Assembly: GCF_002563675.1 (NCBI RefSeq)
Contig: NZ_PDJC01000001.1
Coordinates: 1,798,001-1,862,000, forward strand
Direction of reading: 5' to 3'
Length of the DNA: 64,000 nucleotides
From: Propionicimonas paludicola
GTDB taxonomy: Bacteria > Actinomycetota > Actinomycetes > Propionibacteriales > Propionibacteriaceae
In this document: positions 9,537 to 25,882 of the stretch, in pieces
How positions within the stretch are numbered: the first letter of the stretch is position 1
How the letters are laid out: each line of letters starts with the position of its first letter
The notes under the pieces: generated by a model
What the model was told of the DNA's origin: nothing
Databases searched by the model: none
What the model saw: the letters and a program-made list of their open reading frames with translations, nothing else
Position numbers and translations under genes: made by a program

Positions 9537-9710
9537 GGTGACCTCTTCGGGAGTGTGGGTCAGTACAACAGTGGCGGCGAGCATATCCCCCAAATGAATG
9601 CCGTTGGGTAGGGATTTCCCATTTATCTCACCACTCATTCATCGGGATTGGCCTCCCGGTCCGCTCCCCATGGGTCCGCGGCTCACGACCAACCGGGGCC
9701 GGACGCAGAA

Positions 9711-9752
9711 GAGCCAGGTTGGAGGCCACCCCGCGGGCCCCCAACCTGGCTC
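9711..9752 (-). terminator. 12-bp stem-loop ending the fix/cai-like operon
   Basis: GAGCCAGGTTGG (9711-9722) is perfectly complementary to 9741-9752. On the minus strand the stem is followed by CTTCTG, a weak T-rich tail. It lies 33 bases beyond the fixB stop codon. Confidence 0.7.
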
Positions 9753-9755
9753 AGT

Positions 9756-9780
9756 GGTGGACGTGACGCAGACGTCCACC
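9756..9780 (-). terminator. 9-bp stem-loop, first of two hairpins after fixB
   Basis: GGTGGACGT (9756-9764) pairs with ACGTCCACC (9772-9780), loop of seven. It starts five bases after the fixB stop and precedes the larger hairpin, giving a tandem terminator. Confidence 0.6.
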
Positions 9781-9784
9781 AGCC

Positions 9785-10702
9785 TCAGGCGAGCTTGTCG
9801 AGCAGCTCCGGCAGCATCGCCTCGAGGTCGGCAACCAGGCCAAGATCGCAATGACCGAAGATCGGCGCATTCTTGTCCTTGTTGATGGCCACAATCGCCT
9901 TCGAACCGTTCACGCCCACCAGGTGCTGCACCTGGCCGGAAATGCCCAGCGCCAGATACACCTTCGGTGAGATCACCGCGCCGGAGACCCCCAGATAGCG
10001 GTTCTTGGGCAGCCAGCCCAGCCCTTCGGCGATCGGACGGCTGCACGCCAGCTCACCGCCGAGCTTGCGGGCAAGTTCGGCGGCCCGGGCCACGTTCTCC
10101 ACCGAGCCGATCCCCCGGCCCACGCCGACCACGACCTCGGCCACGCCGAGATCCACACTCTCCTCGGCCAGCGGCGCCCGCGACATCAGCCGAATCGGGC
10201 CGGACGCCACCGCGGCGTCGATGGTGGTCACCGATCCGCCGCCGACCGGGGCGGCCGGGGCGAACAGTCCAGGGCCCACGATGGCGATCACCGATGGCGC
10301 CACCGAGGCCTGCTCGGTCGCTCCGCCGTAGCGGACCAGCCCGAACTCGAAGCCGGCCTCGGCCTCAGCCAGGGAGGCCACATCGCTGGCCACCGGCATC
10401 CCGGTCGCCACCGACAGCCGTCCGGCCAACGCCCGGACCCGCTTGCCGGCCCGCAGCAGCACCAGCTCCGGCTGCAGGGCCGTGATCTCCTCGATCAGCA
10501 CCGGCCAGCAGTCGTCCAGCCACACGTCCTCGGAGATCTCCAGCAGGCGTACCGCCACCCCGAGTTCGGCCACCGCGCACGCCTGGTCGGCCGACCCGAC
10601 CACCACCGCGATCACCTCTTCGGCAAGGGCGGACGCCCCTGCGCACAACTCCGCGTAGCCCCCGACCGACTCGCCGTAGACAACGGCTCGCTTCGCCTTC
10701 AC
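9785..10702 (-). CDS. fixB: Electron transfer flavoprotein alpha subunit (FixB-like)
   Basis: 305 residues. The C-terminal FAD-binding domain is clear: GVGRGIGSVENV, then LGVSGAVISPKVYLALGISG, then NGSKAIVAINKD, which are the ETF-alpha/FixB signatures. With FixA it forms the heterodimer that carries electrons between the FixCX membrane dehydrogenase and an acyl-CoA reductase. The GTG start overlaps the fixA stop codon by four bases (GTGA), implying a 1:1 stoichiometry through coupled translation. It is the last gene of the 13-gene operon. Confidence 0.92.
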   Translation of the reverse strand: MKAKRAVVYGESVGGYAELCAGASALAEEVIAVVVGSADQACAVAELGVAVRLLEISEDVWLDDCWPVLIEEITALQPELVLLRAGKRVRALAGRLSVATGMPVASDVASLAEAEAGFEFGLVRYGGATEQASVAPSVIAIVGPGLFAPAAPVGGGSVTTIDAAVASGPIRLMSRAPLAEESVDLGVAEVVVGVGRGIGSVENVARAAELARKLGGELACSRPIAEGLGWLPKNRYLGVSGAVISPKVYLALGISGQVQHLVGVNGSKAIVAINKDKNAPIFGHCDLGLVADLEAMLPELLDKLA

Positions 10703-11469
10703 TTGGCATCCTTCCCGATCAGCCGACGCAGAGCGTCGAAGAACTCCTGCTGCTGAGCCGCCTCATACACGGCTCCGGCCCGCTGCCGGGACTCCGGCGC
10801 GCGCTCCGGCCCGGCCACCCTAGCCGGTCCGGAGCACGCCACTCCCAGGTCGGCCAGCGACCAGTCGGTCGCCGGCTTCTTGCCGGCCCCGAGGATGTCC
10901 TTCATCGTCGGGATCCTGGGCGAGTTCAGGTCCGAGGTCACCGAGAGCACCGCCGGCAGCGGCACTGCCAGCGTCTCGACCACCCCGTCCAGAGTCCGCT
11001 CGACCACCAGGCCGTCCGCGGAGACCTCGATCTTGCTGACCGCGTTCAGGTACGGCAGCCCGAGCCGGGCCGCCAGCTGCGCGCCCACCTGCTGCGCATA
11101 GCGATCCGCCGAGCCCTCACCGCACACGACCAAGTCGACGCCCTCGACCCGTCCGACGGCCGCAGCCAGGACTTCGGCGGTGACGCCGGCGTCGGCCGTG
11201 GTCAGGCTCGGATCGACCACCGAGGTCAGCGCGCTCACGCCGCGGGACAGGACGCTCTTGCGCAGCTTGGAGTCACGAACCTCCTCGCCACCCACGGTCA
11301 GCGCCACCAGCTCACCGCCATCGGCGGCCAGCTGCGCGCCGGCCTCGATGGCATTGAGGTCGTAGTCACCGACCCGCAGGCCGCAGGCGTCGAGGGTGAC
11401 CGTCCGGTCGGGCGCGACCACGAGGTCACGCTCGTCCCGGACGACCTTGAAACAGGCAACGATCTTCAT
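10699..11469 (-). CDS. fixA: Electron transfer flavoprotein beta subunit (FixA-like)
   Basis: 256 residues: MKIVACFKVVRDE at the N terminus, the ETF-beta nucleotide segment GVDLVVCGEGSADRYAQQVG (about 110-130), and SPRIPTMKDILGAGKKP near the C terminus. The ATG at 11469 follows GGTGGGAG and overlaps the preceding MFS stop by one base; a longer open frame upstream runs antiparallel in another gene and is not real. Separation of fixAB from fixCX by nine genes differs from E. coli, where fixABCX is contiguous. Confidence 0.92.
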   Translation of the reverse strand: MKIVACFKVVRDERDLVVAPDRTVTLDACGLRVGDYDLNAIEAGAQLAADGGELVALTVGGEEVRDSKLRKSVLSRGVSALTSVVDPSLTTADAGVTAEVLAAAVGRVEGVDLVVCGEGSADRYAQQVGAQLAARLGLPYLNAVSKIEVSADGLVVERTLDGVVETLAVPLPAVLSVTSDLNSPRIPTMKDILGAGKKPATDWSLADLGVACSGPARVAGPERAPESRQRAGAVYEAAQQQEFFDALRRLIGKDAK

Positions 11470-12752
11470 CAAACTCCCACCTTGGTTGTCAGGTCTCGGT
11501 CCTTCGGCACCCAGGCGCCTCGGGACAGGTTCACCGCAGGCACGATCAGCACCGCAGCAAGCAGGTAGAGCCCGATCACCAGGTAGAAGCACCAGGCGAA
11601 GGAGCCGGTCAGGTCGACGATGCGTCCGTAGATCAGGAACGACAGCGAGGTGGCCAAGAAGATGCCGGTGGACACCCACGAGTAGATCTCGGCGTAGTTC
11701 AGGCTCCCGAAACAGTTGCGCACCAGCAGCGGGACGATCACGGTCAGGCCGGCATAGCCCACCCCGAAGATCACCATGCCCAGGTAGAACAGCCACACGT
11801 CGGTGGCCAGATAGGCCAGCAGCATGCCGAGGGCTCCGCACAGCATGGCTGCGATCGAGGTCGGCTTCACGCCGATCCGGTCAGCCAGCCAGCCGAGCAC
11901 CAGCTTGCCGATGGTGCCGCCGATCATGACGATCGAGACCGCCATCGCCCCGGCCGCTGCGCCGAGCGGGCTCTTGGCCGTGTAGGCCGGCACCTGCTGG
12001 AAGAAGGCCGCCGTCATCACGATGATGGCCGCGATCAGGATCACCAGGTAGAGCCCTGGGCTGGCCAATGCCTGCGCGCGGGTGGCACCTTCGCCACCGC
12101 GGACGGCATCGGACGGCTCGTTGCCGGACGGTGCCTCATCGGCGCCGTAGGGCTTGAGTCCCATCTTCTCGGGGCTGTCCCGGACGAACAGGAAGGTGAG
12201 CACCACCGAAATCACGGTGGCCACCAGGCAGATCACCAGCCGCGAGTACTGCCAGCCGTGCGAGGTGATCAGGGCCTGAGTGATCGGGCTGGTCAGGGCG
12301 GCCAGCACGCTGAGGACGGCCGCGGTGAGCCCCAAGGCGAGGCCGTTGCTCTTGTGGAACCAGCGGTTCACCAGCACCGGGGCTGCCAGGTACATGAAGA
12401 AGGCGCACGTCACGCCGTAGATGACGCCGTAGAGGTTCCACTGCCACAACTGCGTGGCGTAGGCGGTGGCAGCCGAGGAGAGGCCGAAGATCACCGACGT
12501 GATGGTGAGGATCACCCGCGGCGAGTACCGGGCGAACATCCGTCCGGCGATCGGGGTGCACACGGCAGCCACCAAGGGCTGCAGGGTGCGGTACATGGTG
12601 GTGCTGGTCTGGTCCCAGCCGAACTCGGTCATCACCGGCGCCACGAACAGCCCGGCGGTGTTTCCGATCATCCCCACCGGGATCGAGTAACAACCAATGC
12701 AGCCCAGCAGAACCAGCCAGGGCCACCAACTGCGCGAAGACGTACTGGTCAT
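11469..12752 (-). CDS. MFS transporter, second of a tandem pair
   Basis: 427 residues, twelve predicted membrane helices with a longer cytoplasmic loop in the middle (GLKPYGADEAPSG). It is a paralogue of the adjacent carrier: both have GCIGxYxIPVG in helix 1 and an RxLQPxVAAxCTP segment in helix 2. Proteins of this type (OFA-like or BaiG-like) move small carboxylates, often by exchange. The ATG at 12752 has GGAAAG nine bases upstream. As part of the operon it probably imports the substrate or exports the reduced product; a pair could divide those tasks. Confidence 0.85.
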   Translation of the reverse strand: MTSTSSRSWWPWLVLLGCIGCYSIPVGMIGNTAGLFVAPVMTEFGWDQTSTTMYRTLQPLVAAVCTPIAGRMFARYSPRVILTITSVIFGLSSAATAYATQLWQWNLYGVIYGVTCAFFMYLAAPVLVNRWFHKSNGLALGLTAAVLSVLAALTSPITQALITSHGWQYSRLVICLVATVISVVLTFLFVRDSPEKMGLKPYGADEAPSGNEPSDAVRGGEGATRAQALASPGLYLVILIAAIIVMTAAFFQQVPAYTAKSPLGAAAGAMAVSIVMIGGTIGKLVLGWLADRIGVKPTSIAAMLCGALGMLLAYLATDVWLFYLGMVIFGVGYAGLTVIVPLLVRNCFGSLNYAEIYSWVSTGIFLATSLSFLIYGRIVDLTGSFAWCFYLVIGLYLLAAVLIVPAVNLSRGAWVPKDRDLTTKVGV

Positions 12753-12775
12753 TGAAGTCGCTTTCCGCGTCCCCT

Positions 12776-12803
12776 GCTGGGACGGCCCGTTGGCCGTCCC
12801 AGC
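12776..12803 (-). other. Intercistronic 12-bp stem-loop between the two MFS genes
   Basis: GCTGGGACGGCC (12776-12787) is perfectly complementary to 12792-12803 with a four-base loop (CGTT). It fills most of the 61-base gap between two co-transcribed genes. It has no T-tract on the transcribed strand, so partial attenuation or protection of a processed mRNA end is likelier than full termination. Confidence 0.6.
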
Positions 12804-12813
12804 AAGCAACGAC

Positions 12814-14109
12814 TCAGGCCTTGGCCCAGCTCTTGCGAGCGTTCTTGACGATGATCGGGATGAACACCGCGGTCAGCACGTACATGACGATGACCAGGAT
12901 GAACGCAGCGTCAAACTTCTTGGTGAGGTCGAAGATCTGCGCGTAGATGAGCGCGGCCGCACCACTGAAGATGAAGATGCCGGTGGAGACCCACTGGTAG
13001 ATGTCGGAGTAGTTCGCCGTCCCGAAACCTTCGCGGGCCAGCATCGGAGCCACCACAGTCAGCGCCGCGAAGCCGATGCCGAAGATGCCCATGCCGATGT
13101 AGAACACCGTCACGTTGGCTCCGGAGAAGAAGGCCATGGCCACACCGAGTGCACCGCACAGCGCGGCGAAGACGCCGGTGGCCATGCTGCCGATCTTGTC
13201 GCTCATCCAGCCGAGCAGGAACTTGCCGATGGTCGAGCCGATCATCACGATCGAGACGGCCAGGGCACCGGCGGCGGCACCCAGCGGGCCGGTCGCCGCG
13301 AACGACGGGATCTGCTGGAAGAAGGCCGCGCAGAGCACGAAGAAGCCGGCCACCAGGATCAGCAGGTAGAACGAGAACGAGCGACGCGCCTGGTCGAGGG
13401 TGGCGCCGTCCTGAACCGAGGCCCCCGGGGCATCGGACGAGGCCGCGGACTGCGCCTCTGCGCCGTAGGGAAGCACGCCCATGCTGGCCGGATCGCGGCG
13501 GACGAACAGTGCGGTCAGGATCGTCGGGATGACGGTGATGATGATGCCGAACACCAGGCGGGCCGAGCGCCAGCCGCTGGTGGCGATCATCGACTGTGCC
13601 CACGGGCTGCACAGGGCGGCGATCAGGCTCAAGGTGGCACCGGCGACGCCGAGGGCGACCCCGGCTCCCTTACGGAACCAGGCGTTGATCAGGGTCGGAA
13701 CCGCGAAGAACATGAAGAACGAGCAGCAGATGCCGTAGATGACGCCGTAGGCGTGCCACTCCCAGGGCTGGGTGGCGTAGGCCGTCCAGATGGTCGCCAG
13801 ACCGTACAGCGCGGCGGTGATGGTGAGCACCCAGCGCGGGTTGTACTTGGCCATGATCTTGGCGGCGAAAGGCGTGCACAGCGCGGCAACCCAGGGCTGC
13901 AGGGTCATGTACAAGGAGGCGGTGGTGCGATCCCACCCGGTCTCCTTCATCACCGGGGTGAGGAAGACGCCCGAGGTGTTACCCACCACTCCGACCGGAA
14001 TGGCGTAGAAGCCGATACAGGCGACGACGATCAGCCAGGCATAGTTCGAGCCCAAACCGGTCTTCGGAGCCAGCGGGGCGAGGTTGCCCGGCGTGGCGTT
14101 GGTTGTCAT
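12814..14109 (-). CDS. MFS transporter, first of a tandem pair
   Basis: 431 residues, twelve helices, with the same signature as its downstream paralogue (IGFYAIPVGVVGNTSG; YMTLQPWVAALCTPFA). The cytoplasmic central loop carries DPASMGVLPYGAE, similar to MGLKPYGADE of the partner. The ATG at 14109 is preceded by AGAGAGG. Substrate unknown; by context a carboxylic acid handled by the CoA enzymes of the operon. It most likely arose with its partner by tandem duplication. Confidence 0.85.
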   Translation of the reverse strand: MTTNATPGNLAPLAPKTGLGSNYAWLIVVACIGFYAIPVGVVGNTSGVFLTPVMKETGWDRTTASLYMTLQPWVAALCTPFAAKIMAKYNPRWVLTITAALYGLATIWTAYATQPWEWHAYGVIYGICCSFFMFFAVPTLINAWFRKGAGVALGVAGATLSLIAALCSPWAQSMIATSGWRSARLVFGIIITVIPTILTALFVRRDPASMGVLPYGAEAQSAASSDAPGASVQDGATLDQARRSFSFYLLILVAGFFVLCAAFFQQIPSFAATGPLGAAAGALAVSIVMIGSTIGKFLLGWMSDKIGSMATGVFAALCGALGVAMAFFSGANVTVFYIGMGIFGIGFAALTVVAPMLAREGFGTANYSDIYQWVSTGIFIFSGAAALIYAQIFDLTKKFDAAFILVIVMYVLTAVFIPIIVKNARKSWAKA

Positions 14110-14141
14110 TTTGACCTCTCTGTCAGGTGACGGTTGTGGCG

Positions 14142-15359
14142 CTATTTCGCGCCGTTGTTGAGGATTCCGAGCTGGTAGAGCTCGTCGATGTGCTCGTCGC
14201 TGAAGCCGTGCTCAGTCAGCACCGAGCGGGTGTCGAAGTCGTACGGGGCACCACCGCGCACCGTCCGACTCGGGTTGTTGGCGAATCTCGGCACCGGAGT
14301 GGCACCGAGCATCTCTTCGCCGGTTTGGATGTCCTGCCAGCTCTCAAACACCCCGCGCTGCTGGTAATGGGAGTTCTCGAGCATCATCTGGTAGGTCATG
14401 ATCGGGCTGAGCGCGACGCCCATCGGAGCGAAAGTCGCTTCGACTTCGGCCACCGTGTGGTCCAGGCAGAACTGGTCCAGCTTCTCGGTGAACTTGCGAG
14501 CCCGTTCGGGGAAGTTGCGGGTGATCGACTGGATCGTGCCCTGGAAGTCCGGGTCATCGCCCAGGCCGAAGAACTCGATCATGCCGCGGACAGCCTTGGC
14601 GCCGCCGACCGCGATGAAGATCCAGCCGTCGCGGCACTGCTGAGTGCCCTGACAAGCACCGACGGTGTCGAGGTTGCCCATCCGGGGAGCCTGCTTGCCC
14701 TTGTTGAGTCCGTCGGTCAGGTAGGACGCCTGGAGCCGGACGATCGACTCGAACTGGGCCACGTCGATGCTCTCGCCGACCCCGGTCTCCCGGGCCCGGA
14801 TCACCGCGGCCAGCGACGACCAGGCGCCGAACAGGCCGGCGATGAAGTCACCGGTGTAGGGCTTGGTCACGTAGGGCGGCAGCGGATCGGGGAAGCCGTT
14901 GATGGCCATGTAGCCGCTGAACGCCTGGCCGATCGAGTCGAAGGAGGCCCGCCGCAGGTAGCCCGGGTCGCCGGTCTGGCCGAAGCCGGAGACGTGGACG
15001 ATGACCAGATCCGGCTTGACCTGCCACAGCACCTCGTCGGTCAGCCCCCAGGACGCCCAGGTGCCGCCGCGGGAGGACTCCACCAGCATGTCGGCGTCGG
15101 CGAGCAGCCGGAACAGCACCTCCTTGCCCTGCGGGGTCGGGATGTTCAGGGTCATCGAGCGCTGGTTGCGCCGCTCCATGGACCACGACTGCGGCCACAG
15201 CCGGTACATGTCGGGCACCAGGGTGCTCTCCACCTGGATCACGTCGGCACCCTGCTCGGCGAACAGCTCGCACATGAACGGGCCGGCGACCACCGAGGAG
15301 GCGTTGATCACCTTCAGGTTCTGCAGGTTTCCGAACTTCGGAGGGGGCAAGGGGCTCAT
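14142..15359 (-). CDS. Family III CoA transferase, CaiB-like (copy 2)
   Basis: 405 residues, the same length as E. coli CaiB. N-terminal PKFGNLQNLKV, the AGPFMCELFAEQGADVIQVE nucleotide segment (about 25-44), HVSGFGQTGDPGY (122-134) and a catalytic aspartate at D171 (PYTGD) that matches CaiB D169. The enzyme moves CoA from a product thioester to the free substrate acid, avoiding ATP use on each turn. A diverged paralogue lies immediately upstream. The presence of two may mean a heterodimer or two substrates. Confidence 0.9.
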   Translation of the reverse strand: MSPLPPPKFGNLQNLKVINASSVVAGPFMCELFAEQGADVIQVESTLVPDMYRLWPQSWSMERRNQRSMTLNIPTPQGKEVLFRLLADADMLVESSRGGTWASWGLTDEVLWQVKPDLVIVHVSGFGQTGDPGYLRRASFDSIGQAFSGYMAINGFPDPLPPYVTKPYTGDFIAGLFGAWSSLAAVIRARETGVGESIDVAQFESIVRLQASYLTDGLNKGKQAPRMGNLDTVGACQGTQQCRDGWIFIAVGGAKAVRGMIEFFGLGDDPDFQGTIQSITRNFPERARKFTEKLDQFCLDHTVAEVEATFAPMGVALSPIMTYQMMLENSHYQQRGVFESWQDIQTGEEMLGATPVPRFANNPSRTVRGGAPYDFDTRSVLTEHGFSDEHIDELYQLGILNNGAK

Positions 15360-15413
15360 CGGCCTACCTCTGTTTCTGCTAGTGGATGTGGGTTTACGTG
15401 GGAACCGGACGGG

Positions 15414-16658
15414 TCAGCCGCCGGTGGTCTCGAAGTACTCTCGGCGGGTCAACTGGCCGGCCGCGTAGAGCTCGTCGCGCAGCTGCGCGGAGATCCCCAA
15501 GTCGGCCAGGATCTCGTCGTTGTCCATGCCCACGGTCGGGGCGCCGCGCCAGACCTGGCCGGGATAGCCGGCCACCTCGGGGACCACCTTCACGCCGGGG
15601 ATCCGGGTCTGTCCGTCGGTGGCCAGCCACTCGGTGATCACCTGACGGGCCACGTACTGCGGGTGAGTGCGGGCTGCCTCGTAATCCATCAGCCGCGAAC
15701 ACGGGATACCCGCCCCGGCCAGGATCTCCTCGACCTCGGCGGCGGTGTGCACGCTGAGGAACTCGGCGAAGGACGCCTCCAGCACCTGCGCAGCCACGGT
15801 ATCCACCGGGACGAAGGTGGAGCCGGTCGGGAACAGCTCGCTGCCGTAGTCGAGGTCGAGCAGGGCCAGCACCTTCGGCACCACCCCGGCTCCGAGCACC
15901 AGCACGTAGAGCTCTTCACCGTCGGCGGCCGTGTAGGTCCCGTACAGGGCGCAGATCCGGCTGCGGTTGCCTTCCTTGGTGTAGTCTAAGCCATAGCGGT
16001 AGTAGTCGGTCGGATAGTTGGCCTGCAGCCGCATCATCAGTTCGAACTGGGCGATGTCGAGGCTCTCGCCGCGTCCGGTCTGCTGGCGCTTCAGCAGCGC
16101 CGCATTGGCCATCCCGAAGGCGAACATGCCAGCCGCATAGTCGGCCGGGAACGGCATGGCCGGCGCGGACGGCTGTCCGGGCAACCCGTTCATCCGCATC
16201 ACGCAGCCGAACGCCTGCGCGATCGGGTCATAGCTGGCCCGGGACACATAGCTCGGGTCGCCGGTCTGGCCGAAGCCGGAGATGTGGGCGATCACCAAGC
16301 CGGGGTTGAGCTCCCACAGGGTCTGGTCGGAGTAGCCGATCTTGGCGAACCGGCCGCCCACCGAGGCCTCGACCAACACATCGGCGGTCTCGATCAGCCG
16401 GGCGAAGACCTCCCGTCCGGCGCCATGCACGTAGTCCAGCGACAGGCTGCGCATGTTGCGCCGGTCCTGTTGCCAGGCCCCGGAGCGGCGAGCCACCCGG
16501 GAGGAGTCGATCGCTTTGGGGTTCTCGATCCAGATCACCTCGGCGCCGTGCTCGGCGAACAGCTCACCGGCGAACGGGGCGGCCACCGAGAGCCCGATCA
16601 TGACCACCCGGTAGCCGTTGAGCAGGCCGAACTCCGGCTGGGAAAGACGTGCTGGCAT
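15414..16658 (-). CDS. Family III CoA transferase, CaiB-like (copy 1)
   Basis: 414 residues. PEFGLLNGYRVV, APFAGELFAEHGAEVIWIEN (27-46; very close to CaiB) and HISGFGQTGDPSY are present, with the catalytic aspartate at D173 (FPAD). Near the C terminus GYPGQVWRGAPTVGMDNDEIL also matches CaiB. This copy is the more CaiB-like of the two. It lies 9 bases downstream of the TIGR03084-type gene in the operon. Confidence 0.9.
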   Translation of the reverse strand: MPARLSQPEFGLLNGYRVVMIGLSVAAPFAGELFAEHGAEVIWIENPKAIDSSRVARRSGAWQQDRRNMRSLSLDYVHGAGREVFARLIETADVLVEASVGGRFAKIGYSDQTLWELNPGLVIAHISGFGQTGDPSYVSRASYDPIAQAFGCVMRMNGLPGQPSAPAMPFPADYAAGMFAFGMANAALLKRQQTGRGESLDIAQFELMMRLQANYPTDYYRYGLDYTKEGNRSRICALYGTYTAADGEELYVLVLGAGVVPKVLALLDLDYGSELFPTGSTFVPVDTVAAQVLEASFAEFLSVHTAAEVEEILAGAGIPCSRLMDYEAARTHPQYVARQVITEWLATDGQTRIPGVKVVPEVAGYPGQVWRGAPTVGMDNDEILADLGISAQLRDELYAAGQLTRREYFETTGG

Positions 16659-16667
16659 CGTCGTCCC

Positions 16668-17447
16668 CTACCGCGGGTTCTTCGGCGGAGCCACCGAGGA
16701 GGCTTCCCCGGCGAAGGTCTGGACGATGCCGGCGAACCGTCGGGCCTCGTCACCGACCACTTCCAGGTCGGTGTCCATCCAGTTGCGGCGTCGCACGGCG
16801 ACCAGCGCCCAGTCCCGGGCCGTGCCGCTGATCCGGTTGGCGGCGTCCGGCTCGCCGCGATTCCACAGCTCCCCCGACGGCAACGTCACCGACAGGTAGA
16901 GCGGGGTATCGGGCAGCTCGAGCCCGTTGATCCGGTAAGCGTTCGGACGGGCCTGCCAGGACAGGAACAAGGTGCTGACGATCCGGTCCTTGACCACCGG
17001 ATCCAGGCCGAGGGCGTCGTAGATGTCCACCGAATGCGCCCACAGCTCCATCAGCCGCGCCGAGGCCAGCGACTTGGCCGACATCGGCAGCCCCGGCGCC
17101 CACGGGATCCGGGCCTTGGGGTCGGTGTCCAGGAAGGTCACGGCCAGCCGGCTGCGCTGCTCGCGCCACCAGGTCATCGTCTCGGCGCCGGTCAGGTGGC
17201 CGAAGGCGGTCGGGGTGTAGATCGCGTCGTGCCCGAACTCCACATCGGAGACCCCGTTGACGCAGGTGAACCCGCCGCCGATCATCCGCACCGCGGCGTA
17301 GTCGAAAGCCGCCACGTGCTGCAGTTCCTGCTTGATCGTCCACTCGCAGTTTGCCGACGGCGAGTTCCACACGCTCTCGGGCAGCCCGTCCAGGACGGCG
17401 TCCACCTGGGCCTGCTCGGCCAGCAGATCACTGACGATGCTCTTCAT
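16668..17447 (-). CDS. TIGR03084-type DinB-fold metal-binding protein
   Basis: 259 residues. An N-terminal four-helix DinB/maleylpyruvate-isomerase-like domain is indicated by CEWTIKQELQHVAAFD (about 34-49) and LMELWAHSVDIYDALG (about 132-147). Their histidine/aspartate/glutamate residues would bind a divalent metal. The C-terminal part is the small domain typical of TIGR03084 proteins. Relatives with this fold use mycothiol as a cofactor in isomerisation. Such genes often sit with acyl-CoA genes in actinobacteria, but the function is unproven. An isomerase or hydrolase step on the CoA intermediate is possible. Confidence 0.75.
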   Translation of the reverse strand: MKSIVSDLLAEQAQVDAVLDGLPESVWNSPSANCEWTIKQELQHVAAFDYAAVRMIGGGFTCVNGVSDVEFGHDAIYTPTAFGHLTGAETMTWWREQRSRLAVTFLDTDPKARIPWAPGLPMSAKSLASARLMELWAHSVDIYDALGLDPVVKDRIVSTLFLSWQARPNAYRINGLELPDTPLYLSVTLPSGELWNRGEPDAANRISGTARDWALVAVRRRNWMDTDLEVVGDEARRFAGIVQTFAGEASSVAPPKNPR

Positions 17448-17456
17448 GGCTGAGCC

Positions 17457-18611: not shown

Positions 18612-18622
18612 CTCGTCCTCTT

Positions 18623-21205
18623 TCAGTTACTTTCGACGTGGTAGCGGATCAGCCCGTCCGGGCCGATGGTGGTGGCCAAGGCACCGGATGCGACCAGGTG
18701 CTCCAGCCGGGCCAAGGTGGTGCTGGCGATCGACCAGCGACGCCCGGGGGCGACCTTTGTCCACTCCCGGTGCGGTGCTCGATGGGTGATGATCAGTTCG
18801 GCCGCGGTCACCGGCTGATGGGCCGCGACCAGCGCGACCAGCTCGGCCTGGCGGCGCTCGTGGTGCCGCCGCAGCCGGCGCAGCCGGGTGGCCAGTTCGT
18901 CGCGTCCGCGAGCCCGGCCGTGGCCGGGCAGGACGGTCTCGACGTCGAGAGCGGCCACTCGGCGCAGGCTCTCGAAGTAGTTGGCCACCGGATCACCCGT
19001 CTCCGAGAACAGCGCCGGCGGCAGCTCGAAGAGCACGTGATCACCACTGAACAGCAGCTTCGACTTCGGTAGGTACAAGCACAGATGCCCGTCGGTGTGG
19101 CCGGGGGTTGCGACCACCTGCATCTCCAGGCCGGCCAGGGTGAGCTGATCGCCGTCGCCAACCAGCAGACTGGGCAGCTCGGGCACCTCGGCCGGGCAGG
19201 CGCGCAGCTGCAGGCCTGCGTAGAGGATCACCTCGTCGGCCGCGAAGCCGGCCGCCGTGAACCGCTCGCTGACCCGGGACGGGCCGAAGGCGGCGGCACT
19301 GCGAACCAGCGGCGACTCCCCCAGCCAGCGGGCCACCAGTCCGGAGTGATCGGCATGCTCGTGGCTGAGATAGACCGCAGACACCTCGGCCTGCAGGTGT
19401 TCGACCGCGCGTAGCAGGCTGCCGTGGGCAACCTCATTGGCCGCACCCGGATCGATCAGCAGCCAGCCCTGGGTCCCCTCGACCAGGTAGGCGTTGGTGG
19501 TCGCGGCGTGCCGGGGCAGCATCGGCATGGTGACCCGGTAGACGGCCGGGTCGCTGTGCACCTGGGTGAGCACCTCGTCCAGCTCGGGACGACGCTTCAG
19601 CGACGCCAGCCGGGCCCGGGCATCACGGCTGCGCCGGATCACCTCGGCCCGATGCAGCTTGCCGGCGAAGTCCCGGCCCAGGCTGGGCAGGACCGTCAGC
19701 GAGCGCGGCTTCTTGAAGCCGGCCAGCCGTCCCCGGCAGAAGCACTGGAGTTCGGCAAGGGTGAGGGAGGCGCCCGGACGCAGCTCGACCACGGCGGCAA
19801 CGGCCTCGTCCAGCACCGGGTCGGCCTCGCCGTAGACCATGGCGTCCAGCACGGCCGGATGCTCGCGGACGACCGACTCCACCTCACCGACGAAGACGTT
19901 CTCGCCGCCGGACTTGATCAGTTCGCGCTTGCGCCCGGCCAGGTAGAAGTAGCCGTCGGAGTCGCGCAGCATCAGATCGCCGGTGCGCCACCAGCCGTCG
20001 GCCGTGAAGCCGGCCGCGGTCAGTTCGGGCTGCCCGTGGTAGCCGCGCATCACCGCTGCCGAGCGACACACGCCTTCGCCGACAACGCCGTCGGGGACCG
20101 GCTGGCCGTCCTCGTCGACGATCCGCATCTCCATCAGCGGCATCGGCCGGCCGATGCTGCGGATCCGGGGCGTCCGCTTCAGCGCCATCTCCCGGGTGAG
20201 CACCAGGCTGCAGCCCAGGCCGGACTCGGTCTGGCCCCAGCCGTAGTTCATGATGGCGTTCGGGAACGTCCGATAGATGTCGGCCACGATCTCGGGGCTG
20301 GTGCCGCCGGCCGAGCTTTGCACAAGTCGCACCGAGGACAGGTCGTACTCGCCCAGCCGTGGATGCGCCATCAGCCGCACGTAGGTGGTCGGCGGCAACA
20401 AGATGATGTAGCTGACCCGGTAGCGCTGGATGCTGGTCAGAATCTCATCCGGGTCGAAGGACGAGCACAGCACCAAGGTGGCCCCCAGGGCCAGCGCGCT
20501 GCCGAACCAGGAGTGGCCCCCGTGGTGCTCCAGCGGGCACTGGATCAGCACCACCTTCGCCTCATCGGCGAACATCCCGTTGGAGCCGAAGACTCCTTCG
20601 AACTCGGTCAGGTCGGCCCGGTGGGTGCGCTCGGCCGCCTTCGGGGCACCGGTGCTGCCGCCGGTGAACTGGATCCGGGACAGCGCCTCGGGCTCGCGGA
20701 ACAGCTCCGGCTCGGCGGCGCTGAACCTGTCCAGCAGCGGGCCCAGATCCTCCGCACCCTCGACTGCGCCGTCCACGCACAGCACCGACCGCAGCCCGTC
20801 CACCTCGCCGCGGGCCGCACTGACGACCTCGGCGAACCGGCTCGAGAACAGCAGCACCGTGGCGTCCGAGGTACGCAGGAAGTACTCCAGCTCGGGTGCA
20901 ATCGAGCGGGCGTTCACCGGGACCGCCACCGCGCCGAGCTTCTGAATGGCGTAGTAGACCTCGATCAGAGCGGCGCAGTTCGGCAGGAAGTAGGCCACGG
21001 CATCACCGGGACGCACCCCACGCGCAGCCAACAGCGCGCAGATCTGGTTGCTCCGGGCGTTGACCTCGGCATAGCTGTACTCGTGCCCGCCGCAGATGAT
21101 CGCGGTCCGCTCCGGATTTGCCCGCGCAGCAGCCACGAATGGCTCTGCGACATTGGCGAAGCCGGCCAGGCTGGGCCGACCCGAAGCGGGTGGAAGGGCG
21201 TTCAT
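18623..21205 (-). CDS. Fusion of acyl-CoA synthetase and metallo-beta-lactamase-fold hydrolase
   Basis: 860 residues in one uninterrupted frame. Residues 1 to about 530 are an AMP-forming acyl-CoA ligase (CaiC/BaiB class): P-loop FTGGSTGAPK (180-189), YGWGQTESG (321-329), TGD (408-410) and catalytic lysine K516. Residues about 545-770 are a metallo-beta-lactamase fold with HEHADH (615-620), H703, D722 and H762 for two zinc ions, like LACTB2 or glyoxalase II. The last 90 residues look like a winged-helix tail. The ligase activates an acid with ATP and CoA. The hydrolase may cleave a thioester or ester in the same pathway. Fusion of the two is unusual. The downstream gene is 11 bases away. Confidence 0.85.
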   Translation of the reverse strand: MNALPPASGRPSLAGFANVAEPFVAAARANPERTAIICGGHEYSYAEVNARSNQICALLAARGVRPGDAVAYFLPNCAALIEVYYAIQKLGAVAVPVNARSIAPELEYFLRTSDATVLLFSSRFAEVVSAARGEVDGLRSVLCVDGAVEGAEDLGPLLDRFSAAEPELFREPEALSRIQFTGGSTGAPKAAERTHRADLTEFEGVFGSNGMFADEAKVVLIQCPLEHHGGHSWFGSALALGATLVLCSSFDPDEILTSIQRYRVSYIILLPPTTYVRLMAHPRLGEYDLSSVRLVQSSAGGTSPEIVADIYRTFPNAIMNYGWGQTESGLGCSLVLTREMALKRTPRIRSIGRPMPLMEMRIVDEDGQPVPDGVVGEGVCRSAAVMRGYHGQPELTAAGFTADGWWRTGDLMLRDSDGYFYLAGRKRELIKSGGENVFVGEVESVVREHPAVLDAMVYGEADPVLDEAVAAVVELRPGASLTLAELQCFCRGRLAGFKKPRSLTVLPSLGRDFAGKLHRAEVIRRSRDARARLASLKRRPELDEVLTQVHSDPAVYRVTMPMLPRHAATTNAYLVEGTQGWLLIDPGAANEVAHGSLLRAVEHLQAEVSAVYLSHEHADHSGLVARWLGESPLVRSAAAFGPSRVSERFTAAGFAADEVILYAGLQLRACPAEVPELPSLLVGDGDQLTLAGLEMQVVATPGHTDGHLCLYLPKSKLLFSGDHVLFELPPALFSETGDPVANYFESLRRVAALDVETVLPGHGRARGRDELATRLRRLRRHHERRQAELVALVAAHQPVTAAELIITHRAPHREWTKVAPGRRWSIASTTLARLEHLVASGALATTIGPDGLIRYHVESN

Positions 21206-21218
21206 CGACGTAGCCGGC

Positions 21219-21974
21219 TCAGCTCTGCTCGCCGCCGGGCGCGCGGAAGGCTCCGCTGTGCGCGCAGAACGGGGACGCGGTGGCTTCGGTCTCGAGCATG
21301 GCGTCCAGGCCGTCGTCGTAGCCGGCGTTAAGCATCCCCTTGGTCAGCTGGATCGACAGGGCCGGCATCGCGGCCACCTCCCGAGCCAGGGCCAGGGTGC
21401 CGTCGACCAGCTGATCGGCCGGGAACACCCGGTTGATCAGCCGGTAGCCGAGCAGGTCGGAGGCGCCGAGCACCGCATTGGTGAACAGCAGCTCCTTGGC
21501 GAGCTTGTCGCCGACCAGCTGCGGCAGGAACTTGGCCAGCCCCATCTCCGGGACGATGCCGATCTTGCAGAAGGCCGGCACCACCTGGACCCGGTCGGAG
21601 ACGCAGACCAGGTCGCAGGCCAGCATCAGCGAGAACGCGCCGCCCACGGCGTAGCCGTCCACCATGGCGATCACCGGGGTGGCCATCCGCCGGACCTGGC
21701 GAATCACGTCCAGGTAGGGACGCAGGGTGGCCCGAGTGTTGGCCAGGCTGACCTGATCCGGTGGGGTCTGGCGCAGGTCACCGCCGCTGGAGAAGTTCTC
21801 CCCGGCGCCGCGCAGAATGACCACCCGGGTCGCCTCGTCCGCGTCGGCTTGGCGGAGCAACTCCCCTAGCCGGACCATCATCGGCGCACTGATGGCGTTC
21901 TTCTTGCGCGGCTGGTTCAGCACCAGCACGGTGATGCCGGGCTCGAGCTGCTCGGCGTAGACGGCGTCGTCCAT
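21219..21974 (-). CDS. Crotonase-fold protein, probable enoyl-CoA isomerase
   Basis: 251 residues of the enoyl-CoA hydratase/isomerase fold: oxyanion-hole segment GGDLRQT (64-70) and GYAVGGAFSL (107-116). Both glutamates of true hydratases are absent: S115 stands where the first glutamate belongs and F135 at the second. E143, in GIVPE, falls where PaaG-type isomerases carry their catalytic aspartate. A double-bond isomerase is therefore likelier than a CaiD-type hydratase. The ATG at 21974 follows AGGAAGG, and the frame further upstream is in another gene. It is 13 bases from the ligase fusion. Confidence 0.8.
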   Translation of the reverse strand: MDDAVYAEQLEPGITVLVLNQPRKKNAISAPMMVRLGELLRQADADEATRVVILRGAGENFSSGGDLRQTPPDQVSLANTRATLRPYLDVIRQVRRMATPVIAMVDGYAVGGAFSLMLACDLVCVSDRVQVVPAFCKIGIVPEMGLAKFLPQLVGDKLAKELLFTNAVLGASDLLGYRLINRVFPADQLVDGTLALAREVAAMPALSIQLTKGMLNAGYDDGLDAMLETEATASPFCAHSGAFRAPGGEQS

Positions 21975-21987
21975 GGTGAGTCCTTCC

Positions 21988-24075
21988 TCAGATCCGGCAG
22001 GCGGCCTGGTAGCCGGCCTTGGTGGCGTCCGCGATCCGTCCGGGGTCGGCGCAATCGCCGGCCTCGTACACCTCGACACCGGTGGCCTGCAGGGCTTCGA
22101 ACAGTGAGCGGTTGGCCTGGAAGCCGAGGGTGACCGCCACGGTCTTGGCCGGGACGCTGACCGGCTGGTCGCCGGAGGGCCCGCGCTGGACGACCTCGAC
22201 CGTGCGCGGAGTGATCTTGGTGATCTCCGAGCTGGTCAGCGTGGTGACGTTCTCGGCCTTGCGGAAGGCGCCCACCACATGGAACCGGTCGCTGCCGCCG
22301 ACGTCGTGGCCGATCTTGGGTCCGGCCTCGATGATCGTGGTCTTGCGGCCGCTCTCCATGGCCAGATGGCCCAGCTCACAGCCCGGGAGTCCGCCGCCGA
22401 CGATGGCCAGCGGATTGCCCAGCGGCCACGGGCTGCGCTTGCTCATCACCCGGGCGAAGCCGGGGGTGTAGTACAGCCGCAGGAACACCGCGCCGCAGTT
22501 CCACATGATCTTGTTGATCAGTCCGGGCTTCTTCGGCGGGTGCCCGTTCAGCATCTCCAGGAAGTCGTGGGAGGTGACCACATTCGTCCCGTCGGCGCCG
22601 GGGACGTCGATCCCCTTCGGCTCGCCGCCGATCGCCACCACCACGGCGTCCGGACGCACCTGGCGCACCAACTCGGGGGTGACCGGAGTGTTCAGCACCA
22701 CCTTCACCTGCGGGTGCAGCCGCAGCTGGACCCGGAAGGAGCGCAGCAGTCGCTCATGCAGCGGGCTGAAGATCGAGCTCATCTTCACCGAGCCACCGAC
22801 CCGCGGGCCGGCCTCGTAGATGGTCACGGTGTGGCCCCGATCGGCAGCGGTCATTGCTGCCGAAATGCCGGCCGGGCCGGAGCCGGCCACCATCACCTTC
22901 TTGGGTGCCGTGGCGGGGGGCAGGGTGAGGGTGTCCAGCTCCGCGCCCAGCCGCGGATTGGCCGCACACTTGGTCAACGGAAGCTCACGGCCAACAACGT
23001 CATCGATACAGCGGTTGCAGCAGATGCACATCCGCAGCTCTTCGGGTCGATCCTCGACCACCTTGCGCGGGAAGTCCGGGTCGGCGATCGAGTAGCGCAG
23101 GCCGCCGATCAGGTCGGCCTTGCCCTCGCGCAGGATCCGCTCCATCACCACCGGATCGGTCTCCCGGTAGGCGGTGACCACCGGCTTGGTGGCCACGGTC
23201 TTGATCTGCTGGGAGATCCACGACCAGTGGCCGTCCGGGATCTCCTTGGTGGTCAGCGGAACGCTCGACTCGTGCCAGCCGACGGCCAGGTTGTGCAGGT
23301 CCATGCCGGCGGCTTCCAGGAACGGAACCACCTTCAGGGCGTCCTCGATGGTGTGCCCGGCGCCGTTCTCGCTCTTCACGTACTCCACCGGCGACCAGCG
23401 GACGATGATCGGGAAGTCGGGGCCGACCATGGCCCGGATCTCGGAGATCACCTCGACGGTGAGCCGGACCCGGTTCTCCAGGCTGCCGCCGTACTCATCG
23501 GTGCGATCGTTGGTAGCCGGGGACAGGAAGCGGTTGAGGATCCCGCCGACGCCGGCCATCACCTCGACGCCGTCCCAGCCGGCGTCCTTCATCACCCGGA
23601 CGCAGTTGAGGAACTGCTGCTTGAACAACGCGATGTGCTGGGCCTCCATCCGGCGGAACGGGCCCATGAACTTCAAGATGGTGATGTCGGACGGGCCCCA
23701 GGCCACCTCGTCCTCGTCGGCCTTGGTCTTCCAGTCGTGGACGAAGTAGGGCTGGCCGACCAGCAGGCCGCCGTGCCGATGCACCACCTCGGCCATCTGG
23801 CGCAGGTGCGGCAGGCAGCTGTCGTCGTAGCAGCCGGGCATCGGAGAGAGCCCGGGGTGCTCAGCCGAGCGCTCGTGCGGGCTGAGGGTCTGAGTGATCA
23901 GGGCGGTCTGCCCGGCGGCGCGCTGCTCCAGGTAGTTCAGGAACCGCTGCGTCGGCCGGGAGTTCTGGTCGGTGTAGCCCGCTCCCGGCGACATCGACGT
24001 CGTCATCATCCGGTTGCGCAGGACCACTCCCCCCACCTGCAGCGGTGAGGACAGGAGCGGGAACTTCATACCCAT
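21988..24075 (-). CDS. Iron-sulfur flavoprotein enoate reductase (FadH/BaiCD/BaiH-like)
   Basis: 695 residues in three modules. Residues 1-340 are an old-yellow-enzyme FMN barrel (GVEVMAGVGGILNRFLSPATN with NDRTDEYGGSLENR, about 169-202). A 4Fe-4S motif follows with C350, C353, C356 and C370. From about 393 there is an FAD/NAD(P) domain (VAGSGPAGISAA; a second GGGLPG). The family reduces 2,4-dienoyl-CoA (FadH), enoates, or bile-acid 4-en-3-oxo and 4,6-diene CoA intermediates (BaiCD, BaiH). GGAAG lies six bases before the ATG at 24075. In this operon it could reduce a conjugated or remote double bond before or after the CaiA-like step. Confidence 0.9.
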   Translation of the reverse strand: MGMKFPLLSSPLQVGGVVLRNRMMTTSMSPGAGYTDQNSRPTQRFLNYLEQRAAGQTALITQTLSPHERSAEHPGLSPMPGCYDDSCLPHLRQMAEVVHRHGGLLVGQPYFVHDWKTKADEDEVAWGPSDITILKFMGPFRRMEAQHIALFKQQFLNCVRVMKDAGWDGVEVMAGVGGILNRFLSPATNDRTDEYGGSLENRVRLTVEVISEIRAMVGPDFPIIVRWSPVEYVKSENGAGHTIEDALKVVPFLEAAGMDLHNLAVGWHESSVPLTTKEIPDGHWSWISQQIKTVATKPVVTAYRETDPVVMERILREGKADLIGGLRYSIADPDFPRKVVEDRPEELRMCICCNRCIDDVVGRELPLTKCAANPRLGAELDTLTLPPATAPKKVMVAGSGPAGISAAMTAADRGHTVTIYEAGPRVGGSVKMSSIFSPLHERLLRSFRVQLRLHPQVKVVLNTPVTPELVRQVRPDAVVVAIGGEPKGIDVPGADGTNVVTSHDFLEMLNGHPPKKPGLINKIMWNCGAVFLRLYYTPGFARVMSKRSPWPLGNPLAIVGGGLPGCELGHLAMESGRKTTIIEAGPKIGHDVGGSDRFHVVGAFRKAENVTTLTSSEITKITPRTVEVVQRGPSGDQPVSVPAKTVAVTLGFQANRSLFEALQATGVEVYEAGDCADPGRIADATKAGYQAACRI

Positions 24076-24103
24076 CAGGTGCTTCCTTCTTGCCGTTGAG
24101 CCG

Positions 24104-24385
24104 CTATCCGCGGCGGTATTCGATGCCCATCTCGCCGCGCGGGAAGTACCAGGAGGCCAGCGCGGTTCCGTGGGCCAGGACGTAACAGGTGCCGCACTCG
24201 AAGCAGCCGGCGTAGTCGAAGTCGAGGCTGCCGTCGTCATTGAGCCGGTACAGCCCGGCCGGGCAGCCCCGGACCAGCAGTTCGAGGGTCTTGCGCGGGA
24301 CGCCGGAGGTGTCGGCCAGCGTGATGTGGGCCGACTCCTCGTCCACGGCGAAGCGATCGACGGCGAGCTTGGACTCCAGGCTCAT
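24104..24385 (-). CDS. fixX: FixX-like ferredoxin
   Basis: 93 residues and very similar to E. coli FixX: ALELLV-like TLELLVRGCPAGLY (34-46), then FDYAGCFECGTCYVL (56-70) and a C-terminal YPRG-type ending (YFPRGEMGIEYR). Four cysteines (C41, C61, C64, C67) are those expected to hold a 4Fe-4S cluster. It partners FixC at the membrane. The start ATG overlaps the fixC stop codon (ATGA). Confidence 0.93.
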   Translation of the reverse strand: MSLESKLAVDRFAVDEESAHITLADTSGVPRKTLELLVRGCPAGLYRLNDDGSLDFDYAGCFECGTCYVLAHGTALASWYFPRGEMGIEYRRG

Positions 24386-25755
24386 CGAGTTCCCCCTTTG
24401 CGGTTGGCGGTGCCGCGGACGCGGATCGCGGCACCGCCCAGGGCCCCGGCGACAGAGGCCCGTCCATTGATTGCGCCAAGGCCGCGCCACAGGTCCCGGA
24501 CGAGGCGTCCGAAACCGATCGGTCGCGCTGCGGTGCGCAGTGAGCGAGTGATCGGTTCGGGCTTGCTGCCGTCCACGGAGAACAAAGACAGCATGGCGTC
24601 TTCGGCCAGCTTCGGGTAATCGGTGAACATCCCGCGGGTGTCCTCCAAAAACTTCGGGAACCGGCGATAGAAGGCCAAGTCGGTGAGCACAAAGCTCTCC
24701 TTGAGGCGGTCGGCGTACTCGGCCAGCGAGGCGGCCGAGAAGTCGTTGCGTCCGTGTGCGGCGATCACGGTCTCGGCGGCGATCCGGCCCGACTCGATGG
24801 CCAGGTCCATGCCGCGGATCGTGTAGCCGGTGTTCAGGCCCAGCCCCGCGGCGTCCCCCAAGAGCAGGGCGCCCTCGTGGACGAGCTGCGGGACGGCGTC
24901 GTAGCCGCCTTCGAGGGCCAGGTGACCGCCGTACTCGACCAGGGTGCCGCCGGCGATCAGCGGGGCCACCACCGGATGGCGCTTCAGCCGCTCGACCATC
25001 TCCGGCACCCGGACGTCGCTGTAGCCCAGGTCGCCGATGGTGGTGACGATGCCGAGCGAGACGGTGTCGCGGTTGGTGTAGAGGAAACCGCCACCGATGT
25101 GCCCGTCGGTGCAGTCACCGTCGAAGACCCAGGCGCAGCCCTCACCGGCGGCCAGCCCGAACCGCTGGCTGACCACGTCCTCGCCGAGCTGGATCACTTC
25201 CTTGGCGCCGACCGCGTAGTGATGCGGGTTCGGTTCGCCGATCAGTCCGGCCCGGCGGGCCAGCAACGAGATCGCGCCGTCGGCGAGGAGGACAATCTTG
25301 GCGCTCATCTCCTCCTCGCCGGCGACGACACCTGCCACTCGACCGTCACGCAGCAGCAGGTCGTCCACTCGGATTCCGGTGATCACGCTCGCCCCGGCCG
25401 CCTCTGCCTGGTCGGCGAGCCACTGATCGAACGGCGCTCGCAGCACCGAGTAGGACGCGGACTTTCCGCCGAGCTTTCCGCTGCCGAACTCGACGGTGGA
25501 GGCACTCTCCTGAGTCAGCAGAGAGATGCGCTCCTTGGTGATCAGGCGCTCGAGTGGAGCCTCGGTGGCGAAGTCAGGGAAGACCTTGCCGAGGGCGTGG
25601 GTGTACAGCCGACCGCCGGACAGGTTCTTGCTGCCGGCACTCACGCCACGGTCGATCAGGACCACGTCGAGACCAGCCCGGGCGAGCACCGTGGCGGCGG
25701 TGCTACCGGCGGGCCCGGCCCCCACGATGATCGCGTCGAACGCGTCCTCAGCCAT
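24382..25755 (-). CDS. fixC: FixC-like FAD dehydrogenase of the ETF-quinone oxidoreductase type
   Basis: 457 residues. The FAD-binding motif GAGPAGS occurs at 12-18, the FixC segments GSKNLSGGRLY and APLERLIT follow, then YSVLR, ITGIRVDDL, GGGFLYTN, HPVVAPLIAGG and LLLGDAAGLGLNTGYTIRGMDLA, all lining up in order with E. coli FixC. With FixX it passes electrons between the quinone pool and FixAB. It opens the operon: ATG 25755 follows GGAGGAG, and the palindrome at 25800-25820 lies 45 bases upstream. Confidence 0.93.
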   Translation of the reverse strand: MAEDAFDAIIVGAGPAGSTAATVLARAGLDVVLIDRGVSAGSKNLSGGRLYTHALGKVFPDFATEAPLERLITKERISLLTQESASTVEFGSGKLGGKSASYSVLRAPFDQWLADQAEAAGASVITGIRVDDLLLRDGRVAGVVAGEEEMSAKIVLLADGAISLLARRAGLIGEPNPHHYAVGAKEVIQLGEDVVSQRFGLAAGEGCAWVFDGDCTDGHIGGGFLYTNRDTVSLGIVTTIGDLGYSDVRVPEMVERLKRHPVVAPLIAGGTLVEYGGHLALEGGYDAVPQLVHEGALLLGDAAGLGLNTGYTIRGMDLAIESGRIAAETVIAAHGRNDFSAASLAEYADRLKESFVLTDLAFYRRFPKFLEDTRGMFTDYPKLAEDAMLSLFSVDGSKPEPITRSLRTAARPIGFGRLVRDLWRGLGAINGRASVAGALGGAAIRVRGTANRKGGTR

Positions 25756-25799
25756 GCACTCCTCCACCTCATTGGGAAGGCCGAAGCCTGTACGTACTT

Positions 25800-25832
25800 T
25801 TCAGACTGTTGCCGTCTGAAGTTATTTCAGAC
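25800..25832. promoter_or_regulatory. Probable TetR operator: 21-bp palindrome plus an extra half-site
   Basis: TTCAGAC (25800-25806) and GTCTGAA (25814-25820) form a perfect dyad with a seven-base spacer, and a third TTCAGAC lies at 25826-25832. It sits in the 127-base gap between the divergent tetR and fixC genes, where the -35 region of the fix promoter is expected. I infer binding of the TetR protein; the stretch is also much lower in GC than its flanks. Confidence 0.65.
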
Positions 25833-25882
25833 ACTAGCAGTCCATAACCGAAACGCGCTACCGTTCGATCAGTGGCGCGTCG

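Follow-up and report, generated by a model that had tools for sequence, protein, structure and literature searches.

What does Propionicimonas paludicola do with thirteen tightly packed genes for coenzyme A (CoA) activation, isomerisation and electron transfer? The genes lie within the 64,000-nucleotide stretch analysed here (NZ_PDJC01000001.1, positions 1,798,001 to 1,862,000; the window). The answer we favour is CoA-linked isomerisation and reduction of an unsaturated acid by a self-contained, horizontally spread pathway, with a rough probability of 0.55. The operon would probably let its hosts use such an acid as an electron dump. An earlier sequence-only reading of this DNA had also proposed CoA activation, isomerisation and reduction. 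The CoA, isomerase and electron transfer flavoprotein (ETF) parts are indeed present, but the reductive direction is still something that we infer. Below, OYE stands for old yellow enzyme, NCR and DCR for 2-naphthoyl-CoA reductase and E. coli 2,4-dienoyl-CoA reductase, MDMPI for mycothiol-dependent maleylpyruvate isomerase and MFS for major facilitator superfamily. The thirteen genes are:

24382-25767, minus strand: fixC/ydiS-like flavoprotein, starting at 25767 (GTG) or 25755 (ATG)
24104-24385, minus strand: fixX-like ferredoxin with four cysteines (41, 61, 64, 67)
21988-24075, minus strand: OYE-type Fe-S flavin ene-reductase of the NCR/DCR kind, starting at 24069 or 24075
21219-21974, minus strand: crotonase-fold isomerase-like protein, both hydratase glutamates lost, PEMG glutamate kept
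18623-21205, minus strand: acyl-CoA ligase (about residues 1-540) fused to a metallo-beta-lactamase-fold domain (about residues 541-860), from domain models
17457-18611, minus strand: acyl-CoA dehydrogenase of the YdiO/CaiA group, probable enoyl-CoA reductase, from NF008997, the CaiA model and a tree
16668-17447, minus strand: TIGR03084 protein of MDMPI/DinB fold, with H44, E134 and H138 invariant
15414-16658, minus strand: CaiB-like family III CoA-transferase 1 (CT1), catalytic Asp aligned
14142-15359, minus strand: CaiB-like family III CoA-transferase 2 (CT2), catalytic Asp aligned
12814-14109, minus strand: MFS carrier 1, with weak likeness to monocarboxylate transporters (scores below the model cut-offs)
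11469-12752, minus strand: MFS carrier 2, same group as carrier 1, start possibly at 12809
10699-11469, minus strand: etfB/fixA-like ETF subunit, from the FixA subfamily model
9785-10702, minus strand: etfA/fixB-like ETF subunit, from profile models

The coding sequences run from 25767 to 9785, all on the minus strand and in the order that had been read from the sequence. The twelve intergenic gaps (-4, 34, 13, 13, 11, 9, 9, 54, 32, 61, -1 and -4 nt) range from -4 to 61 nt. As had also been claimed, most (11/12) are below 60 nt, and three are overlaps. The G+C fraction of the operon is close to that of the window (0.679 vs 0.674). On this layout the compact minus-strand block of thirteen genes is a predicted operon. 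Nor is the block a chance collection: its gene content and gene order are repeated in other families and in a second phylum.

This recurrence came from comparing gene order around related dehydrogenases, listed by a short peptide-pattern scan that is not a census. The scan gave 41 dehydrogenase loci, and 18 distant ones (L026-L043, 25-28% identity) were excluded from trees and counts. In a 33-row tree the window dehydrogenase falls in an 11-row clade (98/98) consisting of the window and ten loci (L003-L010, L013 and L054) from two phyla. Membership of this clade goes together with possession of a gene block for the Fe-S flavin reductase, the crotonase-fold isomerase, the CoA ligase and the TIGR03084 protein. 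Among the 29 loci compared, TIGR03084 is present in 10/10 clade loci versus 0/19 others, the OYE-type enzyme (at least 57% identity) in 8/10 versus 0/19 (contig ends truncate L006 and L009; L021 has one 30% match) and the isomerase (at least 47%) in 9/10 versus 0/19 (four matches of 26-32%), absence counts being weak at short loci (L047-L051, about 4.1 kb each; L009, L019, L020 and L023, cut contigs). The order OYE-type enzyme, isomerase, ligase, dehydrogenase, TIGR03084 is found in L003, L004, L005, L007, L008, L013 and L054. L006 has the last four of these genes, L009 has the last two and L010 is rearranged. The fusion of CoA ligase and metallohydrolase that had been claimed for the window is shared by L003-L008, but the L013 and L054 ligases do not have the extra domain.

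By assignment the clade spans Cellulomonadaceae, Actinomycetaceae, Coriobacteriia, Peptococcaceae and Oscillospiraceae. Its members are mostly metagenome-assembled genomes (MAGs), for which binning errors are possible in single cases; L008, by contrast, comes from a named strain, Actinotalea sp. M2MS4P-6, that carries no MAG label. A near relative, L003, is the MAG Actinomycetales bacterium Actino_02. Its dehydrogenase is 98% identical to that of the window and its DNA 92.5% identical over 19.7 kb, collinear with window positions 8002-27633. Two fixC-like genes flank the block of L013, an Oscillospiraceae MAG (L013:4123-5412 and 11966-13165). A related dehydrogenase-ETF block (57-58% identity) occurs in Gordonibacter, Eggerthella and Raoultibacter (L014-L018), without the OYE, isomerase and TIGR03084 of the window; four of these five loci also have a ligase, a CaiB-like transferase and fixC.

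How did such distant hosts come to share the block? The window dehydrogenase is 78% identical to an Oscillospiraceae enzyme vs 74% to that of the genus-mate G024. Together with the tree, this speaks for horizontal transfer. The type is rare: at E 1e-150 the dehydrogenase is matched in 1/394 sampled genomes of the class (its own genome), 3/147 of the family sample and 3/30 of the genus. CaiA-like genes (41-46% identity) occur in 8/30 genus genomes, two of which (G001 and G024) also carry the window type. A plasmid search with the dehydrogenase gave 12 records, all from Escherichia or Proteus, below 60% identity and YdiO- or CaiA-like, with no window-type copy among them. Perhaps the operon detoxifies or salvages a toxic unsaturated acid instead of serving energy metabolism. 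The accessory distribution (1/394 class genomes, 3/147 in the family, one genus) would suit this, as would a TetR-type neighbour of the operon. However, a dedicated ETF with FixCX and CoA-recycling transferases would suit high flux, and detoxification seems quite unlikely.

The dehydrogenase passes NF008997 (PRK12341), which we take to be the YdiO family (645.6 bits, cut-off 537), and fails the model for CaiA, crotonobetainyl-CoA dehydrogenase (426 bits, cut-off 540). Its identity is 53.8% to E. coli YdiO and 43.8% to E. coli CaiA. By family it is probably an enoyl-CoA reductase. The fixC-like protein passes NF007450 (PRK10015), presumably YdiS (496.7 bits, cut-off 466), and fails the FixC model (468.6 vs 610); by plain identity it is equidistant, at 49.9% to E. 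coli FixC and 49.5% to YdiS. The sequence-only reading had named a fixC and a CaiA-like dehydrogenase. These names need correction: the two proteins pass the YdiS-type and YdiO-type models and not those for FixC and CaiA. The nearest named family is ydiO/ydiS-like and not cai/fix, yet E. coli YdiO joins two proteobacterial rows (100/97) outside the window clade. E. coli CaiA joins the enzymes of five genus-mates, L047-L051 (100/100). Deeper branches between the groups are weakly supported in both the dehydrogenase and the transferase tree. As for the smaller electron-transfer proteins, the fixX-like protein scores 108.8 bits with the FixX model (cut-off 166), EtfB is barely over the cut-off of the FixA subfamily model (221 vs 219) but under that of PRK12342 (278 vs 338), and EtfA is under the cut-offs of both E. 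coli models.

In which direction would electrons flow? The genome, one 3.26-Mb contig, has one ETF pair. The dehydrogenase query finds only itself there at E <= 0.001, a search in which more distant dehydrogenases could be missed. 3-Hydroxyacyl-CoA dehydrogenase (3HCDH) gave 0 matches in this genome (a control search matches in 7/14 genomes). On these results ordinary beta-oxidation looks absent, with thiolase not searched genome-wide. A beta-oxidation reading was lowered on the 3HCDH result. Profile scans recognised no thiolase or lyase among the thirteen operon genes. MenD is over its cut-off and cytochrome bd is present, so a quinone pool is likely available. Such a gene content is what one would expect of a dedicated pathway in a host that lacks ordinary beta-oxidation and has a quinone pool to serve FixCX; reduction is favoured, not proven.

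What if the same parts run in reverse? In this scenario the CoA ester of a saturated or 3-enoyl acid would be dehydrogenated, and EtfAB and FixCX would pass the electrons to menaquinone and cytochrome bd in a partial transformation. Acyl-CoA dehydrogenases are reversible, E. coli YdiS is annotated as a putative ETF-quinone oxidoreductase and the fixX-like protein has a sub-threshold match to Fer4_ETF_QO (20 vs 24 bits). Cytochrome bd and MenD are also present. Nevertheless, 3HCDH has no match in the genome, the operon member of the enoyl-CoA hydratase (ECH) family lacks the hydratase residues and no operon gene would use the product. Moreover, the dehydrogenase is kin to CaiA, which is annotated as a reductase. 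An oxidative route is thus rather unlikely.

The OYE-type enzyme had been likened to the enoate reductases BaiCD and BaiH. It is indeed an Fe-S flavoenzyme of OYE type, but it scores 310.2 bits with the BaiCD model, whose cut-off is 825, and among solved structures it is nearer to enzymes that act on acyl-CoA. Its best PDB matches are NCR (6qkg, 282.6 bits) and DCR (1ps9, 242.6 bits). In NCBIfam its top matches are mycofactocin OYE 2 (372.7), bilirubin reductase (312.8) and BaiCD, and none of these scores comes near the respective cut-off. The likeness to NCR and DCR extends to the domains, the Fe-S cysteines and the active-site His. Judged from sequence, the enzyme retains the FMN barrel, those cysteines, the nucleotide-binding domains and the His. 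However, Gly176 (numbered from the ATG at 24069) aligns with the proton-donor Tyr, NCR Y197, as counted on the PDB alignment. This position is Gly in 9/9 module enzymes and Tyr in 3/3 comparators (FadH and both OYEs of L021). A passage in PMC6502838 terms the proton-donating tyrosine (Y197 in NCR) invariant among OYE members. According to part of another report, EasA with Phe in place of this Tyr isomerises its substrate, and changing the Phe to Tyr gave reduction (PMC4303823). An OYE-type enzyme without its usual proton donor may therefore not be a plain reductase. The AlphaFold model is mediocre (pLDDT 72.1, pTM 0.54, residues 324-381 under 50).

The crotonase homologue is similarly altered. 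In the operon protein Ser and Phe occupy the positions of the two Glu of 5zai, the catalytic residues of hydratases, so that it does not classify as a hydratase and the claimed lack of a true CaiD hydratase holds. PEMG is found in 10/10 rows of this homologue, where 3hrx has its VPD motif. The neighbouring CoA ligase scores 213.4 bits with the CaiC model and does not pass its cut-off of 651 (curated score only).

What might the TIGR03084 protein contribute? It passes the TIGR03084 model (271.5 bits, cut-off 247.95), MDMPI_N is also over cut-off, and H44, E134 and H138 are invariant across 10 TIGR03084 sequences. In a Foldseek search its AlphaFold model (pLDDT 80.7) best matched 2nsg and 2nsf, MDMPI itself, with E 2.5e-6 and 3.1e-6. 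These were the sole matches with E <0.001 among 142 (TM 0.56-0.62, root-mean-square deviation 6.1-6.5 A). A passage of PMC5815605 places metal-dependent thiol transferases in the MDMPI/DinB-type superfamily. The likeness to MDMPI thus comprises the best fold match, the MDMPI_N domain and a His/Glu/His set. The difference is that identity is 16%, the superposition is loose and TIGR03084 members occur also in Bacillota. Bacillus and Staphylococcus use bacillithiol, according to a section of PMC4360819. As to mycothiol supply in the host genome, the best MshA match has 326.1 bits (cut-off 462.5). TIGR03084 was absent from the open-access literature searched.

The two transferases have identities of 39.7 and 36.7% to E. 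coli CaiB and do not pass the CaiB model (343.4 and 351.2 bits, cut-off 413). The catalytic Asp of both, which we take to be Asp169, aligns with those of CaiB, Frc and YfdE. In a 31-row tree CT1 and CT2 are in separate clades, and E. coli CaiB groups with the genus-mates L047-L051 (97/100). The nearest models to the MFS carriers are monocarboxylate transporters, under cut-off.

How could these parts work together? The MFS carriers would take up the acid and export the product. The CoA ligase would do the first priming, and the CaiB-type transferases, given their families and aligned Asp, would then hand CoA from product to next substrate. The OYE-type flavoenzyme and the crotonase-fold isomerase could carry out a bond rearrangement or a first reduction, to judge by family and residue states. 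The YdiO-like dehydrogenase would saturate the 2,3 double bond, with electrons supplied by FixCX and EtfAB. From its fold and His/Glu/His set, the TIGR03084 protein may be a metal- and thiol-dependent cis-trans isomerase or a thiol adduct enzyme. In addition to the dehydrogenase, then, several enzymes of the operon might isomerise or reduce. This suggests that the double bonds of the substrate are conjugated, misplaced or cis, as they would be in, for example, a dienoic or cyclic unsaturated acid. A bolder version can be put forward tentatively. Likened to EasA with Phe for Tyr, the Tyr-less OYE might be a hydride-cycling isomerase, or else a reductase with a new proton donor. It would act beside a thiol-dependent MDMPI-type cis-trans isomerase in CoA metabolism. 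The whole would be an undescribed electron-sink or anaerobic respiration route for a multiply or cis-unsaturated acid, transferred between Actinomycetota and Bacillota.

Several observations do not fit the favoured reductive pathway easily. Its OYE-type enzyme lacks the usual proton donor. The TIGR03084 protein has no PDB sequence match at E <= 1, and its fold match is loose at 6.1-6.5 A. The genome has four ECH-family matches including the operon protein, and one of the three genes elsewhere could supply a hydratase in trans. The operon proteins could also work as oxidants of an acyl-CoA, given menaquinone and cytochrome bd. Finally, in the G024 locus (L054) the TIGR03084 gene is separated from a transferase by a membrane-protein frame and two MaoC-like genes, the first MaoC-like gene recognised by Pfam and the second only from reading its translation. 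The substrate there may be hydroxylated. No fixC is found in 28.5 kb of this locus, and therefore the linkage to FixCX is not constant. L013 has a SnoaL-like gene beside a transferase, and a sigma-54 factor and an activator gene near the block. The MaoC-like and SnoaL-like genes hint that dehydration of a hydroxy acid could feed the block in some hosts.

The operon is bordered by candidate control elements:

25883-26599, plus strand: divergent TetR-type gene, candidate operon regulator (PF00440, 48.5 bits, cut-off 24)
25800-25842, no strand assigned: candidate operator, TTCAGAC-N7-GTCTGAA at 25800-25820 with a third half site at 25826
9711-9781, minus strand: two tandem hairpins, candidate terminator region, from inverted repeats and folding

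The candidate operator lies between the TetR-type gene and the operon start. Its half sites are identical in L003, with a single base change between them. The consensus scan also scores the palindrome at 25800-25842 as terminator-like on the plus strand. At the other end, two hairpins had been said to close the operon. Two inverted repeats do lie 3' of etfA, at 9711-9752 (17-nt arms, 94%) and 9755-9781 (10-nt arms, 100%). For the 151 nt from 9790 to 9640 the folding energy is -91 kcal/mol (z = -4.38), and 0/200 shuffles were equally good. However, the consensus scan gave no terminator-like site at 9711-9781 (6 sites found, 4.5 expected). A terminator here is plausible.

On the far side of the TetR-type gene a Fic-domain protein (27684-28835) adjoins a NERD-domain protein (28891-29967). 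Positions 29844-39733 hold a probable sugar-use cluster with GH1, alpha-amylase, GH3, alpha-galactosidase-like, NagB-like and ABC permease genes. The right end of the window (60513-63923) may hold an integrated element: a gene resembling tyrosine recombinases (60513-61709, below cut-offs) has an endolysin/amidase-like gene (62652-63923) in its vicinity.

Within anaerobic energy metabolism, little is charted about how unsaturated acids from food, plants and waste are reduced. A YdiO-like dehydrogenase with TIGR03084 and a Tyr-less OYE makes a clear genetic marker for one such route in mostly uncultured actinobacteria and clostridia. TIGR03084 gains a first testable context, and a natural Tyr-to-Gly OYE is useful for asking how ene-reductases protonate or isomerise.

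How does the operon compare with known systems? The general kind is already known, but a block with a Tyr-less OYE, isomerase and TIGR03084 was not found in the open-access literature searched. Reduction of shikimate to cyclohexanecarboxylate, in which the isomerase ChcB acts, was considered and set aside; the thirteen genes include no recognised dehydratase and the literature gave nothing usable, so it stays an idea.

The bai operon includes a CoA ligase, the OYEs BaiCD and BaiH, the CaiB-type transferase BaiF and an MFS carrier, and the window operon shares this set. A BaiCD/BaiH-like steroid or bile-acid pathway would account for the overlap. The carriers match the conjugated bile salt transporter model below threshold (98 and 99 bits, cut-off 400), and L013 adds its SnoaL-like gene beside a transferase. 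However, the OYE-type enzyme has 310 bits with the BaiCD model, far short of the 825 needed. The SnoaL-like gene matches no NCBIfam bile-acid model, the presence of a BaiE model there not having been checked. To our knowledge the YdiO-like dehydrogenase/ETF/FixCX set is no part of bai. Such a pathway is very unlikely.

The E. coli caiTABCDE and fixABCX operons offer a CoA ligase, a CaiB-type transferase, a CaiA-type dehydrogenase and the FixABCX parts. As the sequence-only reading held, the operon has these CoA and electron parts without CaiT or CaiE; BCCT (CaiT-type) gave 0 matches in the genome, and no CaiE-like gene is among the thirteen. Might it be a carnitine or betaine operon of a variant type, with crotonobetaine or something closely similar as the compound reduced? 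The part list equals cai plus fix, and the best PDB match of CT1 is crotonobetainyl-CoA:carnitine CoA-transferase (284.5 bits). However, in trees of the CaiA- and CaiB-like proteins neither the dehydrogenase nor either transferase falls in the clades that hold E. coli CaiA and CaiB. Placement in the carnitine clade, which the sequence-only reading had named as refuting it, thus did not occur for these proteins. No cai cut-off is passed, the genome has no BCCT match and the ECH protein lacks the hydratase Glu. In addition, 8/30 genus genomes have a separate CaiA-like gene (41-46% identical), two of them beside the window type, and we know of no role for an OYE-type reductase or isomerase in carnitine reduction. 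Identity as a carnitine operon was rejected, and a variant is highly improbable. In the 4.1-kb stretches of the genus-mates L047-L051, a CaiA-like dehydrogenase adjoins a CaiB-like transferase, both grouping with the E. coli proteins, as in a likely carnitine operon. One report already proposes that caiABC and fixABCX together form a route for terminal electron acceptance in two species of Propionibacterium (PMC7650540), and a passage of another ties genes of a cai/fix cluster in P. freudenreichii to carnitine compounds (PMC11007987).

The third system is the E. coli ydiF-ydiO-ydiQRST-fadK cluster. It differs in using YdiF as its CoA-transferase and in that the annotation of the 15-kb region includes no gene for an OYE, an isomerase, a TIGR03084 protein or a CaiB-like protein. 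Nevertheless, it shares with the window operon a YdiO-type dehydrogenase (53.8% identity), an ETF pair, a FixC/FixX-type pair and a CoA ligase.

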